Below the pieces are notes generated by a model, which worked only from the letters and a program-made list of their open reading frames with translations, was not told the DNA's origin and did no database searches. A stretch of 64,000 nt of DNA. Origin: Gemmatirosa kalamazoonensis (GTDB taxonomy: Bacteria > Gemmatimonadota > Gemmatimonadetes > Gemmatimonadales > Gemmatimonadaceae). A program made the translations under genes and the position numbers. Location of the stretch: positions 124,001 to 188,000 of the forward strand of contig NZ_CP007128.1 in the NCBI RefSeq assembly GCF_000522985.1, written 5' to 3'. Shown here piece after piece: positions 9,983-59,872 of the stretch (position 1 is the stretch's first letter; the number at the start of each line of letters is the position of its first letter).

Positions 9983-10190
9983 CGGCGTGAAGCGGAGGGA
10001 GATGCGGTCGTGCAGGGCGGAGCGCGCGCCGACGGACCCGCCGGCGGCTCCGGTTCGCCCGCCCGGCGACTCAGGGCGCGCGCCTTACTGGGTGGGGATG
10101 GTGCGTGGCATTCTGCGACGGCGCGAGCGGCGGTGCAAGAGCCGTTGAGGGGAATTCACGCGAGATCGGCCCGCACGTCGACGACGCTCC

Positions 10191-10270
10191 GTACGTCGCC
10201 GTACGTCGCCGTACGTCGCCGTACGTCGTCGTACGTCGTCGTACGTCGTCGTACGTCGTCGTACGCCGTC
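10191..10270. repeat. Eight tandem copies of a 10-bp unit, GTACGTCGYC
   Basis: Exact period of 10 bp: three GTACGTCGCC, four GTACGTCGTC and a final GTACGCCGTC. Each unit contains the palindrome GTAC. The array is in the non-coding region (9983-10566) between the leftward small membrane gene and ugd. A 10-bp period is not a codon multiple, and it places each copy on the same face of the helix. Confidence 0.95.
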
Positions 10271-10437
10271 GATGCGATCGCTCGACGCGCTCGAGACGGA
10301 CGACATCAGTGACGGGGCACGAGAGGCGCGCGGGAGGGAGTGCGGTCATAGGATGCGTCTTCGCTACGTCGAACGACCGGCCGCCGGGAGGGTCCGTTGC
10401 ATCCACGCCACGGTTCCGGCTCCGCGTTTCATGCCGA

Positions 10438-15831: not shown

Positions 15832-15848
15832 GCCGCGAAGATACAGTC

Positions 15849-16067
15849 GGGACTCGGGACTCGGGACTCGGGACTCGGGACTCGGGACTCGGGACTCGGG
15901 ACTCGGGACTCGGGACTCGGGACTCGGGACTCGGGACTCGGGACTCGGGACTCGGGACTCGGGACTCGGGACTCGGGACTCGGGACTCGGGACTCGGGAC
16001 TCGGGACTCGGGACTCGGGACTCGGGGCTGCAGACTCCCGAGTCCCGAGTCCCGAGTCCCGAGTCCC
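15849..16067. repeat. Inverted heptamer array: 25 x GGGACTC, 16-bp core, 4 x GAGTCCC
   Basis: Exactly 25 tandem GGGACTC units (15849-16023), then a core GGGGCTGCAGACTCCC (16024-16039), then four inverted units (16040-16067). The whole can fold into a hairpin. The same element, with core GGCGCTGCGGACTCCC, occurs in the opposite orientation at 42993-43099 with 9 and 4 units. It separates the hydrophilic 140-residue gene from alkA and may terminate transcription between them. Confidence 0.97.
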
Positions 16068-16068
16068 G

Positions 16069-16673: not shown

Positions 16674-17090
16674 ATGAGACACCGTCCCCTCCGGCGGATC
16701 GCCGCGGCGCTCGTGAACCTGCTCTTCCTGCTCGCGTGGGGAGAGCCGGTCGCGCTGCACCCGTGCCCGATGCACGACGGAGTGGTCGCGGCGACGGCGA
16801 CCACGGCGACGGCGGCGACCGCGGCGCATTCGACGGCGAGCCATCATGGCCACATGGCGATGGCGCCCGCGACGGGGCACGACCACGCCGCGCACGAGGG
16901 CGGGCACGTCTGCAGCTGCCTGGGCAGCTGCTCGGTGAGTGTCGGCGCGGTGGCGCCGAGCGCGCAGGCGATCCGCTGGCAGGTCGTGGTCCGGCGGCGC
17001 GTCGCCCCGATCGAGGCCGACGCCGCGGCGCCGCTGGCGTCCGCGCCCCGGCTCCTTCCCTTCGCGAACGGACCTCCGCGCACGGCCTGA
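16674..17090 (+). CDS. Small secreted His/Cys-rich protein
   Basis: 138 residues. A signal peptide (AALVNLLFLLAWGEPVAL) is followed by HPCPMHDG, a His-rich run (ASHHGHMAMAPATGHDHAAH) and CSCLGSCS. The density of His, Met and Cys suggests a periplasmic or surface metal-binding protein, perhaps for copper. It recalls the small DUF2946-like proteins found beside TonB receptors, but the match is by pattern only. It lies 153 bp upstream of the TonB receptor on the same strand, and the propeller protein after that carries a CPCC motif, so the three may form a metal-related unit. Confidence 0.7.
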   Translation: MRHRPLRRIAAALVNLLFLLAWGEPVALHPCPMHDGVVAATATTATAATAAHSTASHHGHMAMAPATGHDHAAHEGGHVCSCLGSCSVSVGAVAPSAQAIRWQVVVRRRVAPIEADAAAPLASAPRLLPFANGPPRTA

Positions 17091-17243: not shown

Positions 17244-19634
17244 ATGTACCGATTCGTTCTCCCGCTGCTCGTCGCGCCGTCGATCGCGGCGGCGCAGCAG
17301 CAGCCTCCCGCCCTGCACGCACCGCACGCGACGCCCTCCGCGCGCGCCGCGACCGCCGGCGCGATCGAGGGCCGCGTCACCTCGCCGAAGGGCGAGCCGC
17401 TGAGCGACGTCATGGTCGTCCTGCGCAACGCCGACGGGACCCCCGGCGTGCGCGGCGCGCAGACCGACAACGACGGCCGCTTCGTCATCCCGAACGTGCC
17501 CGCGGGGAGCTGGACGCTCGTCGCGCGCCGCGTGGGGCTGGCCGAGGCGACGCGCACCGTCACCGTCGACGGCGGCGCGCAGACGGTGGAGCTCACGCTC
17601 GCCGAGCAGGCGACGGTCGTCGCGCCGATGGTGGTGAGCGCGTCGAAGGAGCGGCAGCGCCGCACCGAGTCGTCGGCGACGATCGACGTCGTGGACGGCG
17701 CCGAGGTGCGTCTCGCGCGCGCCGCGCACCCCGCGCAGATCATGAAGCGCGTGCCCGGCGTCTACGTCGGCCAGCTCTCGGCGGAGGGGCACAACATGGC
17801 CATCCGCCAGCCGATCGGCACGAAGCCGCTCTACCTCTACCTCGAGGACGGCATCCCGACGCGCGCGACGGGGTTCTTCAACCACAACGCGCTGTACGAG
17901 GTGAACCTGCCGCAGAGCGGCGGCATCGAGGTGCTGAAGGGGCCCGGCACGGCGCTCTACGGCAGCGACGCGATCGGCGGCGTGATCAACGTGCTCACGC
18001 GCCCCGCGCCGACGAAGCCGTCGGGCGAGCTGTCGCTCGAGGGCGGCGACGGCGGCTACCGGCGCATGCTGGCGACGGCGGGCAATACGTGGGGCGCGAA
18101 CGGCCTCCGCACGGACCTCAACCTCACCGACGTCTCCGGCGCCGGACGCCGCGACGACTCGCCGTACCACCGCTACTCGGGCACGGTGCGCTGGGACCAC
18201 TTCGGCACGGTGAACGCGCGCACGGTGGTCACCGGCTCCACGATCGACCAGAACGACGCGCTGTCGCTCGACAGCCTGCGGTGGACGGCGCGCAGCACGG
18301 CGAACCGCAGCCCGCTCGCGTTCCGCAAGGTGCGCGCGCTGCGCGCGTCGACGGCCCTCGAGAAGGAGAGCGGCGCGACGCTCGTGAGCGTGACGCCGTA
18401 CGCGCGCTACGACGTGCTGTCGATCCTCCCGAACTGGCAGCTCTCGTACGACCCGCAGACGTACACGACGCGCAACTATTCGTTGGGCGTGCTGGCGCGC
18501 GTGCGACGTGAGATCGTGCCGCTCAAGACGAAGCTCATCGCCGGCCTGGACGTCGACTACTCGCCGGGGAGCTTCCTCGCGAAGCAGGCGATCCTCACGA
18601 AGTCGGGCACGGGCGGCGCGGCGATCTACCAGTCGTACAAGGACGGCGCGACGCAGTACGACTACGACGTGACGTACCGCAGCGCGTCGCCGTACGTGCA
18701 GGCGGAGCTCTCGCCGCTGCCGACCCTCCACATCGACGCCGGCGTGCGCTACGACGCGTCGGGCTACCTGTACGACACGCACCTCGCGCCGGTGGACACG
18801 GGCGCGCACCGCGTGCCGGCGAGCACGACGCGCGACTACTCGCGCGTGAGCCCGAAGATCGGCGCGAGCTGGGAGCTGTCGCGGGCGGTCGCGCTGTACG
18901 GCTCGTACCGCACGGGCTTCCGCGCGCCGTCGCAGGGGCAGCTGTTCACGCAGGGCTCCGCGCTGAACACGGTGGACCTCAAGCCGGTGAAGGTCGCGAG
19001 CTGGGAGGGCGGCGTACGCGGACAGGTCGGCCGGCGCCTCGTGTACCAGGTCGCGGCGTACGACATGACGCTCAAGGACGACATCATCACGTTCATCGAC
19101 GCGAGCGCGCGGCGGATCGCGACGAACGCCGGCGAGACGCGGCACAAGGGGATCGAGACGAGCGTCGGCGCCGCGCTGCTACCGTCGCTGCGGCTCGACG
19201 TGGCGCAGTCGGTGTCGAGCCAGAAGTACGTGACGTGGGTGCCGCAGGCCGCGCGCGCCGCGACGTCGACGAAGCCCGCGGTGGCCGAGGTGCGCTACGA
19301 CGGCAACACGATCGAGGCCGCGCCGCGCGACCTGTCGAACGTGCTGCTCACCTGGTCGCCGGCGCCGCTGCAGGGCGGCCGTGTGGCCGCGGAGTGGACG
19401 CACACGGGACGCTACTTCACGGACGCGCAGAACACGCACAGCTACGCCGGCTACGACATCGTGAACCTGCACGCGAACTACGTCGTGCGGCCGAACCTCG
19501 AGCTGTTCGGGCGCATGGTGAACGTGACGAACGCCGTGTACGCCGAGGTGGTGTCGTTCGACGCCGTGCAGGGGCAGCAGTTCACGCCGGGCACGCCGCG
19601 GACCATCTATGCCGGCGTGCGGGTCGGGCGCTGA
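17244..19634 (+). CDS. TonB-dependent outer-membrane receptor with N-terminal carboxypeptidase-like domain
   Basis: 796 residues. Signal peptide 1-17; residues 40-115 are a carboxypeptidase regulatory-like beta-sandwich (IEGRVTSPKGEPLSDVMVVL). The plug domain follows (VVSASKERQRR, IMKRVPGVYVGQLSAEG, GGIEVLKGPGTALYGSDAIG), then a 22-strand barrel ending in a typical aromatic/Arg terminus (YAGVRVGR). It imports a chelated metal or other ligand using TonB energy. The substrate is not determined, but the His/Cys-rich neighbours suggest a metal. The ATG at 17244 gives a compact signal peptide. The next gene starts 6 bp after its stop. Confidence 0.93.
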   Translation: MYRFVLPLLVAPSIAAAQQQPPALHAPHATPSARAATAGAIEGRVTSPKGEPLSDVMVVLRNADGTPGVRGAQTDNDGRFVIPNVPAGSWTLVARRVGLAEATRTVTVDGGAQTVELTLAEQATVVAPMVVSASKERQRRTESSATIDVVDGAEVRLARAAHPAQIMKRVPGVYVGQLSAEGHNMAIRQPIGTKPLYLYLEDGIPTRATGFFNHNALYEVNLPQSGGIEVLKGPGTALYGSDAIGGVINVLTRPAPTKPSGELSLEGGDGGYRRMLATAGNTWGANGLRTDLNLTDVSGAGRRDDSPYHRYSGTVRWDHFGTVNARTVVTGSTIDQNDALSLDSLRWTARSTANRSPLAFRKVRALRASTALEKESGATLVSVTPYARYDVLSILPNWQLSYDPQTYTTRNYSLGVLARVRREIVPLKTKLIAGLDVDYSPGSFLAKQAILTKSGTGGAAIYQSYKDGATQYDYDVTYRSASPYVQAELSPLPTLHIDAGVRYDASGYLYDTHLAPVDTGAHRVPASTTRDYSRVSPKIGASWELSRAVALYGSYRTGFRAPSQGQLFTQGSALNTVDLKPVKVASWEGGVRGQVGRRLVYQVAAYDMTLKDDIITFIDASARRIATNAGETRHKGIETSVGAALLPSLRLDVAQSVSSQKYVTWVPQAARAATSTKPAVAEVRYDGNTIEAAPRDLSNVLLTWSPAPLQGGRVAAEWTHTGRYFTDAQNTHSYAGYDIVNLHANYVVRPNLELFGRMVNVTNAVYAEVVSFDAVQGQQFTPGTPRTIYAGVRVGR

Positions 19635-19639
19635 TCGCC

Positions 19640-21046
19640 ATGCATCCGTCGACGACGAACATGCGGAGCGTGGAGCGTGGAGCGTGGAGCGTGGAGCGCT
19701 CTCGCTGGCCTGCCACGCTCCACGCTCTCCGCTCCACGCTCGCTCTCCTCGGCGCGATCGCGTGTGGGACGGCCGAGGGCGCGAGGACGCCGGAGGCGTC
19801 CGTGACCTTCGGCGAGGCGCGTGTCGTGAGCGCGAGCACCGAGGTGGGCGCGGCGCCGACGTTCGCGGTGGGGCCCGATGGCCGCCGCGCCGTGGCGTGG
19901 GTGTCGGCGCCCGGCGGCGGGACGGACGGGCGGCTGTACGTCGCGCCGGTGGGCGCGGACGGCGCGTTAGGCGCGACGGCGGAGCTGCGCGACGCGCTGG
20001 GCCCGATCGAGCCGCACGGCGAGGCGCCGCCGAAGCTGGCGTTCGCGCCGAGCGGCGCGCTCTACGCGCTGTGGGTCGTCGGCAAGGACGTGCCGGGCCG
20101 CCGCTTCCCCATGAGCGCCCTCCGCTTCGCCCGCTCCGACGATGGCGGCCGTACGTGGACGGCGCCGGCGAGCGTGACTGACCTGCCGCAGCCGTTCGGG
20201 AGCTTCAACTTCCACGCGCTGCAGGCGGGGCGCGGCGACACCGTGTACGCGACGTGGCTCGACGGGCGCGCCGGCAAGAGTGCGACGTTCATGACGCGCT
20301 CCACCGACGGCGGCCGCACGTGGGCGCCGAACGTGCGCGTCGACCCCGCCGGCGAGGCGTGCCCGTGCTGCCGCACGGCGGTCGTCGCGGGGCGCGGCGA
20401 CACGGTGTACGCGGCGTGGCGCAAGGTCTTCCCGGGGAACGTGCGACAGGTCGTCGTCGCGCGCTCCGCCGACGGCGGACGCACGTGGGCGGCGCCGGTC
20501 GCCGCACAGCGCGACGGCTGGGTGATCGACGGCTGCCCGCACGCCGGGCCGTCGCTGCAGGTCGACGCCGCGGGGCGCGTGCACGTCGCGTGGTGGACGG
20601 GCAAGGAGGGCGCGGCCGGCGTGTTCTATGCCCGCTCCGACGACGGCGGCCGCACATTCGGCGCGCCCGCGCCGCTGGGCGTGGCGACGTACTCGCGCCC
20701 CGCCCACGTGCAGCTCGCGCTCGATGCCGCGCCTAACGCCGCGCCTAACGCCGAGCCCACCGTGGTGGCGACGTGGGACGACGGGACGGTGCGGCAGCCG
20801 CGCGTGCTCGTGCGCGTGTCGCGCGACGGCGGCGCGACGTTCGGCCCCGCCTCGGAGGCGAGCGCCCCGGGACGCTCGGCGACGTTCCCGGTGCTCGCCG
20901 CGCACGCGGGGCGCGTGACGCTCGCGTGGAACGAGGAGGCCGGCAGCGTGGAAGAGCACCACCACGCCGCGCGCGACACGGAGGCGCACCAGCCGCTGCC
21001 GTCGGTCGGCCGCAAGACGATCGTGATGCGCGACGGGCGCCTCTAG
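19640..21046 (+). CDS. Exported Asp-box (BNR/sialidase-like) propeller protein
   Basis: 468 residues. Five Asp-box repeats are visible (RSDDGGRTW, RSTDGGRTW, RSADGGRTW, RSDDGGRTF and VSRDGGATF), the hallmark of sialidase-type beta-propellers. The sialidase catalytic Arg triad is not evident, and a GEACPCCRT motif suggests a bound metal instead. The N-terminus is odd: its signal-like segment (LHALRSTLALLGAIACG, possible lipidation Cys) is encoded by an inverted GAGCGTG minisatellite. It starts 6 bp after the TonB receptor stop and is probably co-transcribed. Likely a surface or periplasmic accessory of the receptor; sialidase activity is doubtful. Confidence 0.8.
   Translation: MHPSTTNMRSVERGAWSVERSRWPATLHALRSTLALLGAIACGTAEGARTPEASVTFGEARVVSASTEVGAAPTFAVGPDGRRAVAWVSAPGGGTDGRLYVAPVGADGALGATAELRDALGPIEPHGEAPPKLAFAPSGALYALWVVGKDVPGRRFPMSALRFARSDDGGRTWTAPASVTDLPQPFGSFNFHALQAGRGDTVYATWLDGRAGKSATFMTRSTDGGRTWAPNVRVDPAGEACPCCRTAVVAGRGDTVYAAWRKVFPGNVRQVVVARSADGGRTWAAPVAAQRDGWVIDGCPHAGPSLQVDAAGRVHVAWWTGKEGAAGVFYARSDDGGRTFGAPAPLGVATYSRPAHVQLALDAAPNAAPNAEPTVVATWDDGTVRQPRVLVRVSRDGGATFGPASEASAPGRSATFPVLAAHAGRVTLAWNEEAGSVEEHHHAARDTEAHQPLPSVGRKTIVMRDGRL
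19666..19741. repeat. Inverted GAGCGTG minisatellite inside a coding start
   Basis: Four tandem GAGCGTG units (19666-19693), a 20-bp core, and four inverted units CACGCTC, CACGCTC, TCCGCTC and CACGCTC (19714-19741). It lies within codons 9-34 of the propeller gene. A related GAGCGTR array flanks the fliL promoter region at 59600-59793. Confidence 0.92.
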
Positions 21047-31270: not shown

Positions 31271-31296
31271 GTCCGGAAGTATCGGCACGTATCGCG

Positions 31297-31412
31297 AGGG
31301 CAGGAGGGCAGGAGGGCGCGCGCGAAACGCGCGAGGGCAGGAGAGCCACAAGGTCTCCTGCCCTCCTGCCCTCCTGCCCTCCTGCCCTCCTGCCCTCCTG
31401 CCCTCCTGCCCT
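31297..31412. repeat. Inverted AGGGCAGG/CCTGCCCT octamer array
   Basis: Two AGGGCAGG units (31297-31312) and a third after a GC-rich spacer (31334-31341), then seven tandem inverted CCTGCCCT units (31357-31412). It occupies the gap between cheZ and the hybrid kinase gene. The same family, including the spacer GAGGGCGCG-AA-CG-CGAGGGCAGGAG, recurs at 40086-40284. Confidence 0.94.
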
Positions 31413-31418
31413 CGCCCG

Positions 31419-42983: not shown

Positions 42984-42992
42984 CAGAATGTC

Positions 42993-43099
42993 GGGACTCG
43001 GGACTCGGGACTCGGGACTCGGGAGTCCGCAGCGCCGAGTCCCGAGTCCCGAGTCCCGAGTCCCGAGTCCCGAGTCCCGAGTCCCGAGTCCCGAGTCCC
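42993..43099. repeat. Inverted heptamer array: 4 x GGGACTC, 16-bp core, 9 x GAGTCCC
   Basis: Reverse-orientation copy of the element at 15849-16067. Read on the minus strand it is nine GGGACTC, the core GGCGCTGCGGACTCCC, then four GAGTCCC. Core length and the four-unit short arm are identical in both copies; only the long arm differs (9 against 25). It lies between convergent genes. Confidence 0.97.
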
Positions 43100-43109
43100 G
43101 ACCACCCAG

Positions 43110-59596: not shown

Positions 59597-59648
59597 GCCG
59601 AGCGTAGAGCGTAGAGCGATGAGCGTGGAGCGTAGCGCGTAGAGCGCG

Positions 59649-59663
59649 CGGCAACTCTTACCG
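59649..59663. promoter_or_regulatory. Activator palindrome CGGCAA-CTC-TTACCG
   Basis: One mismatch from perfect. First of two sites spaced 24 bp, centre to centre, upstream of fliL. Confidence 0.6.
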
Positions 59664-59672
59664 GGCGTCGGG

Positions 59673-59687
59673 CGGCAATCCTTGCCG
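59673..59687. promoter_or_regulatory. Activator palindrome CGGCAA-TCC-TTGCCG
   Basis: Perfect arms, 186 bp upstream of fliL. No matching sigma-54 element was found between this site and the gene. Confidence 0.7.
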
Positions 59688-59872
59688 CTCGGCGCTTTCG
59701 TTCATCCGGCCACGTCCCGGGCCGGCGACCGGCGTTCGACTTGAACTCGTTGCTGGGTAAATACTTACGCTCCACGCGCCACGCTCCACGCTCATCGCGC
59801 CCCCTGGCACCGGCCCTGCTTTTCCCTCGCCCCGGAAAAGCACGTCCCCCGCCTCTCCCCTCCCGCCCAGAA

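Follow-up and report, generated by a model that had tools for sequence, protein, structure and literature searches.

The Asp-box (BNR) propeller gene of Gemmatirosa kalamazoonensis contains, near its 5′ end, an inverted array of the heptamer GAGCGTG. We propose that this array is probably a copy of a genome-wide family of hairpin elements, inserted in frame at the 5′ end of a gene for a predicted lipoprotein, with the ancestral start codon and lipobox both kept. Positions refer to the window, the whole stretch of 64,000 nucleotides that was analysed (contig NZ_CP007128.1, positions 124,001 to 188,000).

An inverted heptamer array near the start of the Asp-box gene

The Asp-box gene follows directly on a gene for a TonB-dependent receptor, and 5 nt separate the receptor stop codon from ATG 19640 (Table 1). 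Its product gave weak matches to sialidases. Further upstream, 5′ of the receptor gene, positions 16674-17090 encode a small His- and Cys-containing protein of 138 aa with no Pfam match, which may belong to the same operon as the receptor gene.

We found that codons 9-34 of the frame 19640-21046 are made up of the array, which extends over positions 19665-19741 and consists of 4.9 units, a loop and four inverted units. The initial annotation had described an inverted GAGCGTG array filling these codons, and this was borne out by the sequence itself, by TRF, by triplet counts and by the fold. The array region folded into a single long RNA hairpin of -96.3 kcal/mol, compared with -69.9 ± 3.7 kcal/mol for shuffled sequences (z = -7.1), and the hairpin starts 25 nt past ATG 19640 and 4 nt past ATG 19661. 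A 21-base triplet of GAGCGTG units was counted over the whole genome (7,479,215 bases, with a main contig of 5,311,527 bases, in a single PacBio-based assembly), and 120 exact matches and 405 matches with at most two mismatches were obtained, while the reversed control gave 0. The triplet counts and the hairpin z-score together rule out a chance repeat. GAGCGTG and its complement are free of stop codons in every frame.

Table 1. Features of the Asp-box locus (positions in the window) and further genes with in-frame arrays (positions in their own loci)
Feature	Position	Strand	Basis or description
TonB-dependent receptor gene, directly 5′	17244..19634	+	Pfam Plug, beta-barrel and carboxypeptidase-regulatory domains
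Asp-box (BNR) propeller gene, predicted lipoprotein	19640..21046	+	ORF, codon-usage gene call, BNR_2, orthologues
Probable start codon ATG	19640..19642	+	Position of orthologous starts; conserved stop-to-start spacing; without Shine-Dalgarno
Left arm	19665..19698	+	4.9 units GGAGCGT, 100% match by TRF
Alternative in-frame start GTG	19691..19693	+	GGAG 8 nt upstream; insensitive to left-arm copy number
Loop, ~15 nt	19699..19713	+	Sequence and fold
Right arm, four inverted units	19714..19741	+	CACGCTC CACGCTC TCCGCTC CACGCTC
Right-arm unit CACGCTC	19714-19720
Right-arm unit CACGCTC	19721-19727
Right-arm unit TCCGCTC	19728-19734
Right-arm unit CACGCTC	19735-19741
ALLGAIA-C (codons 35-42), hydrophobic core with lipobox, outside the array	19742..19765	+	Sequence; equivalent segment in 15 orthologues
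DnaA	L145:9260-10786		In-frame inverted heptamer array
MutS	L136:10314-13007		In-frame inverted heptamer array
ABC-F	L155:8064-10109		In-frame inverted heptamer array
ArgC	L160:8202-9272		In-frame inverted heptamer array

The array belongs to a dispersed family

Arrays were surveyed over the first 1.6 Mb of the chromosome, 90% of which is coding according to a home-made gene caller based on codon usage. Heptamer and octamer arrays outnumber those of other periods; they form 89 groups, and few words are in use, namely ACTCGGG, ACGCTCC (the type of the Asp-box locus), AGGAGGGC, ACGCAGCC and ACGCGGAG. Most groups are inverted pairs (75/89), with the G-rich arm first in 70. Noncoding arrays make up 67 of the 89 and are packed into the 10% noncoding DNA, close to the ends of genes: 82 of the 92 gene stops that flank them are at most 30 bp from the array. 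Placement between convergent genes was enriched (30/66 arrays vs 116/764, p = 3e-8), and placement between divergent genes was rare (4/66 arrays vs 194/764, p = 1e-4). Such a distribution fits a role, or tolerance, at the 3′ ends of transcripts. The TCGGGAC arrays share two recurrent loop types, TGGGGGAGCAGT and GCTGCGGAC, in either orientation, which suggests that the whole inverted TCGGGAC unit is copied as one; the loops of the GAGCGTG arrays, including that of the Asp-box locus, all differ from each other.

Several further arrays were observed in the window. Two inverted TCGGGAC arrays, at 15847-16068 and 42991-43101, are intergenic and lie beside gene ends, and one of them has 25.7 perfect units. 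An inverted octamer array of CTCCTGCC occupies 31280-31413. At 59600-59793, degenerate GAGCGTA/GAGCGTG units, with inverted units about 150 bp off, form an array that resembles a decayed copy of the GAGCGTG family. The decamer tandem array CGTACGTCGT at 10171-10271, with about 8 to 10 copies, has a unit length unlike that of the family.

Heptamer arrays inside genes

In-frame insertion is supported by the survey, where 22 of the 89 arrays fell in predicted genes, in frame, and most of these 22 were flanked on either side by strong coding signal in the same frame. Except for ArgC, ABC-F, DnaA, MutS, the SLBB export protein and the Asp-box gene, the in-gene cases depend on the home-made gene caller. 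Within the same 1.6 Mb, arrays in genes accounted for 20 of 47 heptamer arrays vs 2 of 42 octamer arrays (Fisher p = 4e-5). Stop codons were rejected as the cause of this octamer avoidance of genes, since the octamer words, read by eye, are stop-free as well.

The inserts in ArgC, ABC-F, DnaA and MutS are supported both by solved structures and by orthologues, and DnaA carries two arrays, in the linkers on either side of its ATPase domain. An insert in the SLBB export protein is supported by two genomes of the sister genus g16: the site in G015 is without an array, and G042 aligns without the insert. A comparison of gamma-glutamyltransferase was set aside, the matches being at most 47% identical and probably paralogues.

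The export signal is present in orthologues without the array

We compared 15 Asp-box orthologues with a readable N-terminus, all from outside the genus Gemmatirosa. Every one of them has a lipoprotein-type signal that ends in a Cys before the propeller, and the array was absent from the orthologous site in 15/15; from genus g16 this check covered G015, the G042 contig ending at the start of the Asp-box gene. In Gemmatirosa, ALLGAIAC (codons 35-42, with the Cys42 codon at 19763-19765) is single-copy sequence just 3′ of the array. The PROSITE lipoprotein rule PS51257 describes a small residue before the Cys, an uncharged hydrophobic stretch and a basic residue near the N-terminus. In agreement with it, GAIA-C has 6 uncharged residues before the Cys and, counted from ATG 19661, places the Cys at 35 with R2 and R6; the orthologous signals likewise fit. 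The distance from Met to Cys is 14-29 residues in the orthologues vs 42 here from ATG 19640 and 35 from ATG 19661. A TonB gene is located 5′ in 12 of the 15, with a stop-to-start distance of -4 to 10 nt in 10 of these 12. In the nearest orthologue, that of G015 (75% identical), the alignable flanks are 122 nt apart, compared with 179 nt here.

An equivalent signal exists in every one of the 15 orthologues, none of which has the array, and hence the export signal predates the array. With the ancestral start on its 5′ side and the ancestral hydrophobic core on its 3′ side, the array lengthened the n-region and neither created nor replaced the signal. From its absence in 15 lineages we infer that the array was gained in the lineage of Gemmatirosa, not lost elsewhere. 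The initial annotation had considered that orthologues lacking the repeat and keeping a downstream signal would make the array 5′ untranslated. The orthologues are indeed array-less and have retained the signal, but the orthologous TonB stop-start junction aligns upstream of the array, so that it is not simply a 5′ untranslated region. Provided that the start is the orthologous ATG 19640 (or ATG 19661), the array would indeed be translated within the export-signal region. The further proposal, of a hydrophobic segment encoded by the array, was not confirmed: the stretch that had been named lies only partly in the array, which encodes the long n-region and stops at codon 34, ahead of the core and lipobox.

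We suggest that one member of the dispersed family of inverted heptamer arrays inserted in frame in the Gemmatirosa lineage, and that both ancestral elements, the start beside the TonB-receptor stop and the hydrophobic core with its lipobox, were retained. Translation of the stop-free array would then add about 25 residues to the cytoplasmic n-region, and these would be discarded with the signal peptide on cleavage before Cys42. No Shine-Dalgarno sequence was found at ATG 19640 or at ATG 19661. Translation coupling to the TonB stop is the likely route of initiation; ribosomes that reach the end of the TonB gene would probably resume 5 nt on, opening the hairpin. The lipoprotein identity of the Asp-box protein, its synthesis and its export are predicted from sequence, and we infer coupled initiation, export and cleavage with no important functional effect of the insert. 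Against a tolerated insertion, it may be objected that the n-region would be unusually long, that a hairpin of -96 kcal/mol near both ATGs could hinder initiation and that both ATGs are without a Shine-Dalgarno sequence.

Start codon choice and the switching question

Translation might instead start inside the array, at GTG 19691, and produce a 25-residue signal (MERSRWPATLHALRSTLALLGAIAC), which we consider rather unlikely. The insertion would be the same one, with the array supplying both the ribosome-binding site and the start. Each left-arm unit offers GGAG followed after 8 nt by GTG, GTGs occur in all three frames, and GTG 19691 is in frame with the gene. GTG is the start in 30% of the called genes, GGAG is found upstream of about 21% of them vs 3% in a control stretch, and the resulting 25 residues fall within the orthologue range of 14-29. 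However, the gene has kept the orthologous ATG intact, in frame and 5 nt past the TonB stop, and the hairpin buries the GGAG.

It is improbable that the insertion damaged the gene, in the sense that the hairpin or the long n-region blocks synthesis or export and the gene is decaying. Decay would be consistent with a very stable hairpin at the gene start and a signal longer than that of every orthologue, but the remaining 420 codons are open and still have coding signal.

We regard it as very improbable that gain and loss of 7-bp units switch the lipoprotein on and off. The initial annotation had raised this on the ground that a change of one unit would shift the frame. This premise applies to ATG 19640, from which adding or removing 1 or 2 of the left-arm units, which are perfect, led in silico to a frameshift and a truncated protein. 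It fails if GTG 19691 is used: this codon sits 3′ of the tandem units, and therefore changes in left-arm copy number cannot shift the frame (in silico). Arrays of the same size are found in DnaA, MutS, ABC-F and ArgC, where frequent frameshifting should harm, most members of the family lie past stop codons and touch no frame, and the locus is without a known copy-number variant. We found no evidence of actual switching. Finally, creation or replacement of the export signal by the repeat, as had also been suggested, is hardly credible, since the hydrophobic core and the Cys stand outside the array and 15/15 array-less orthologues have an equivalent signal, even though most residues before the lipobox do come from the array.

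Some sites carry a different word in a sister genus

Nine in-gene sites were tested in genus g16, and heptamer arrays were found at the same protein position in four of them, namely MutS, ArgC, ABC-F and the first DnaA site, where the g16 words are GAGCGTC or GAGCGCC. G042 carries arrays at all four shared sites, and G015 in ArgC, plus one arm only in DnaA. In the other genera compared, the four sites have short plain loops, or an unrelated insert in the case of MutS of G109. The second DnaA site and the sites in SLBB, FlgJ, the histidine kinase and the Asp-box gene showed no array in g16; among the g16 genomes, the Asp-box, FlgJ and kinase sites were tested in G015 only. The GAGCGTG triplet matched 120 times in Gemmatirosa (G000) and 0 times in both G015 and G042, and the GAGCGTC triplet 0, 44 and 121 times, respectively. 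The probability of four in nine by chance would be about 1e-6 at 1% tolerant positions and 6e-4 at 5%, with these rates assumed and the sites not chosen at random. An intergenic case was also observed after one gene, with CCGAGTC (TCGGGAC-type) units at G000:C2:204387-204432 and ACGCAGC units at G015:C3 near 150530.

A tentative reading, which is possible although doubtful, is that arrays persist at fixed positions, even in essential genes, while the heptamer word has been exchanged genome-wide between the sister genera. The words would be GAGCGTG/TCGGGAC in Gemmatirosa and GAGCGTC/GAGCGCC in g16, and the exchange would be driven by copying or conversion among dispersed arrays. The shared sites may reflect common ancestry followed by an exchange of units, or else repeated insertion at loops that tolerate it. 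Exchange of units at shared sites would, if confirmed, be the most unexpected element of these findings.

Meaning and comparison with known repeat families

The in-gene arrays point to in-frame invasion of coding sequence by a simple-repeat hairpin family in a free-living soil bacterium; genes for a replication initiator and a mismatch-repair protein are among those invaded, and, with in-frame insertion as the preferred account of the Asp-box locus, insertion would be tolerated even in an export signal. How repeats are copied and kept uniform has been addressed mainly for eukaryotic satellites and REP elements. Should homogenisation lie behind the different heptamers at shared sites, the copying and uniformity of bacterial dispersed repeats become testable, and word exchange, if true, would parallel in bacteria the concerted turnover of satellites.

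REP/REPIN elements are dispersed extragenic palindromes, and we know of no tandem heptamers in REP elements. The arrays described here resemble them in lying mostly at most 30 bp from stop codons and in being enriched between convergent genes, but differ in consisting of tandem heptamers. In the literature searched, we found no account of dispersed heptamers or in-frame palindromes for Gemmatimonadota.

G-rich heptameric repeats of the form GGGNATC are dispersed by hundreds in Xanthomonas and Nostoc (Rehm et al. 2015, PMC4692102). The Xanthomonas GGGAATC heptamers show an intergenic bias with 7-11% intragenic copies, there are 70 convergent inverted pairs in Xcc and 75 in Xac, few copies lie between divergent genes, and Xcc and Xac share one heptamer unit (PMC4692102). 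Here too, tandem 7-nt units are dispersed genome-wide, prefer noncoding DNA (67/89), form inverted pairs and are rare between divergent genes. In contrast, the words are unlike, and GAGCGTG lacks the GGG tract required for a G-quadruplex, although TCGGGAC of Gemmatirosa has one. Furthermore, about 75 of the 89 groups here are inverted pairs and a quarter are in genes, in frame, and the units vary between sister genera, whereas Xcc and Xac have one. The GAGCGTG array therefore resembles the GGGNATC class in location and pairing without belonging to it.

Rickettsia palindromic elements (RPE) are in-frame palindromes in many unrelated protein genes, tolerated as an extra peptide (PMC10969869). 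A palindromic repeat in frame in protein genes is likewise present here, in ArgC, ABC-F, DnaA, MutS and SLBB; RPE are about 150 bp long with a conserved sequence, whereas the present elements are tandem heptamers of about 60-100 bp, and the two are likened by placement and not by sequence. The Asp-box locus is one instance of its family, and its nearest known kinds are the Xanthomonas GGGAATC heptamers and RPE.
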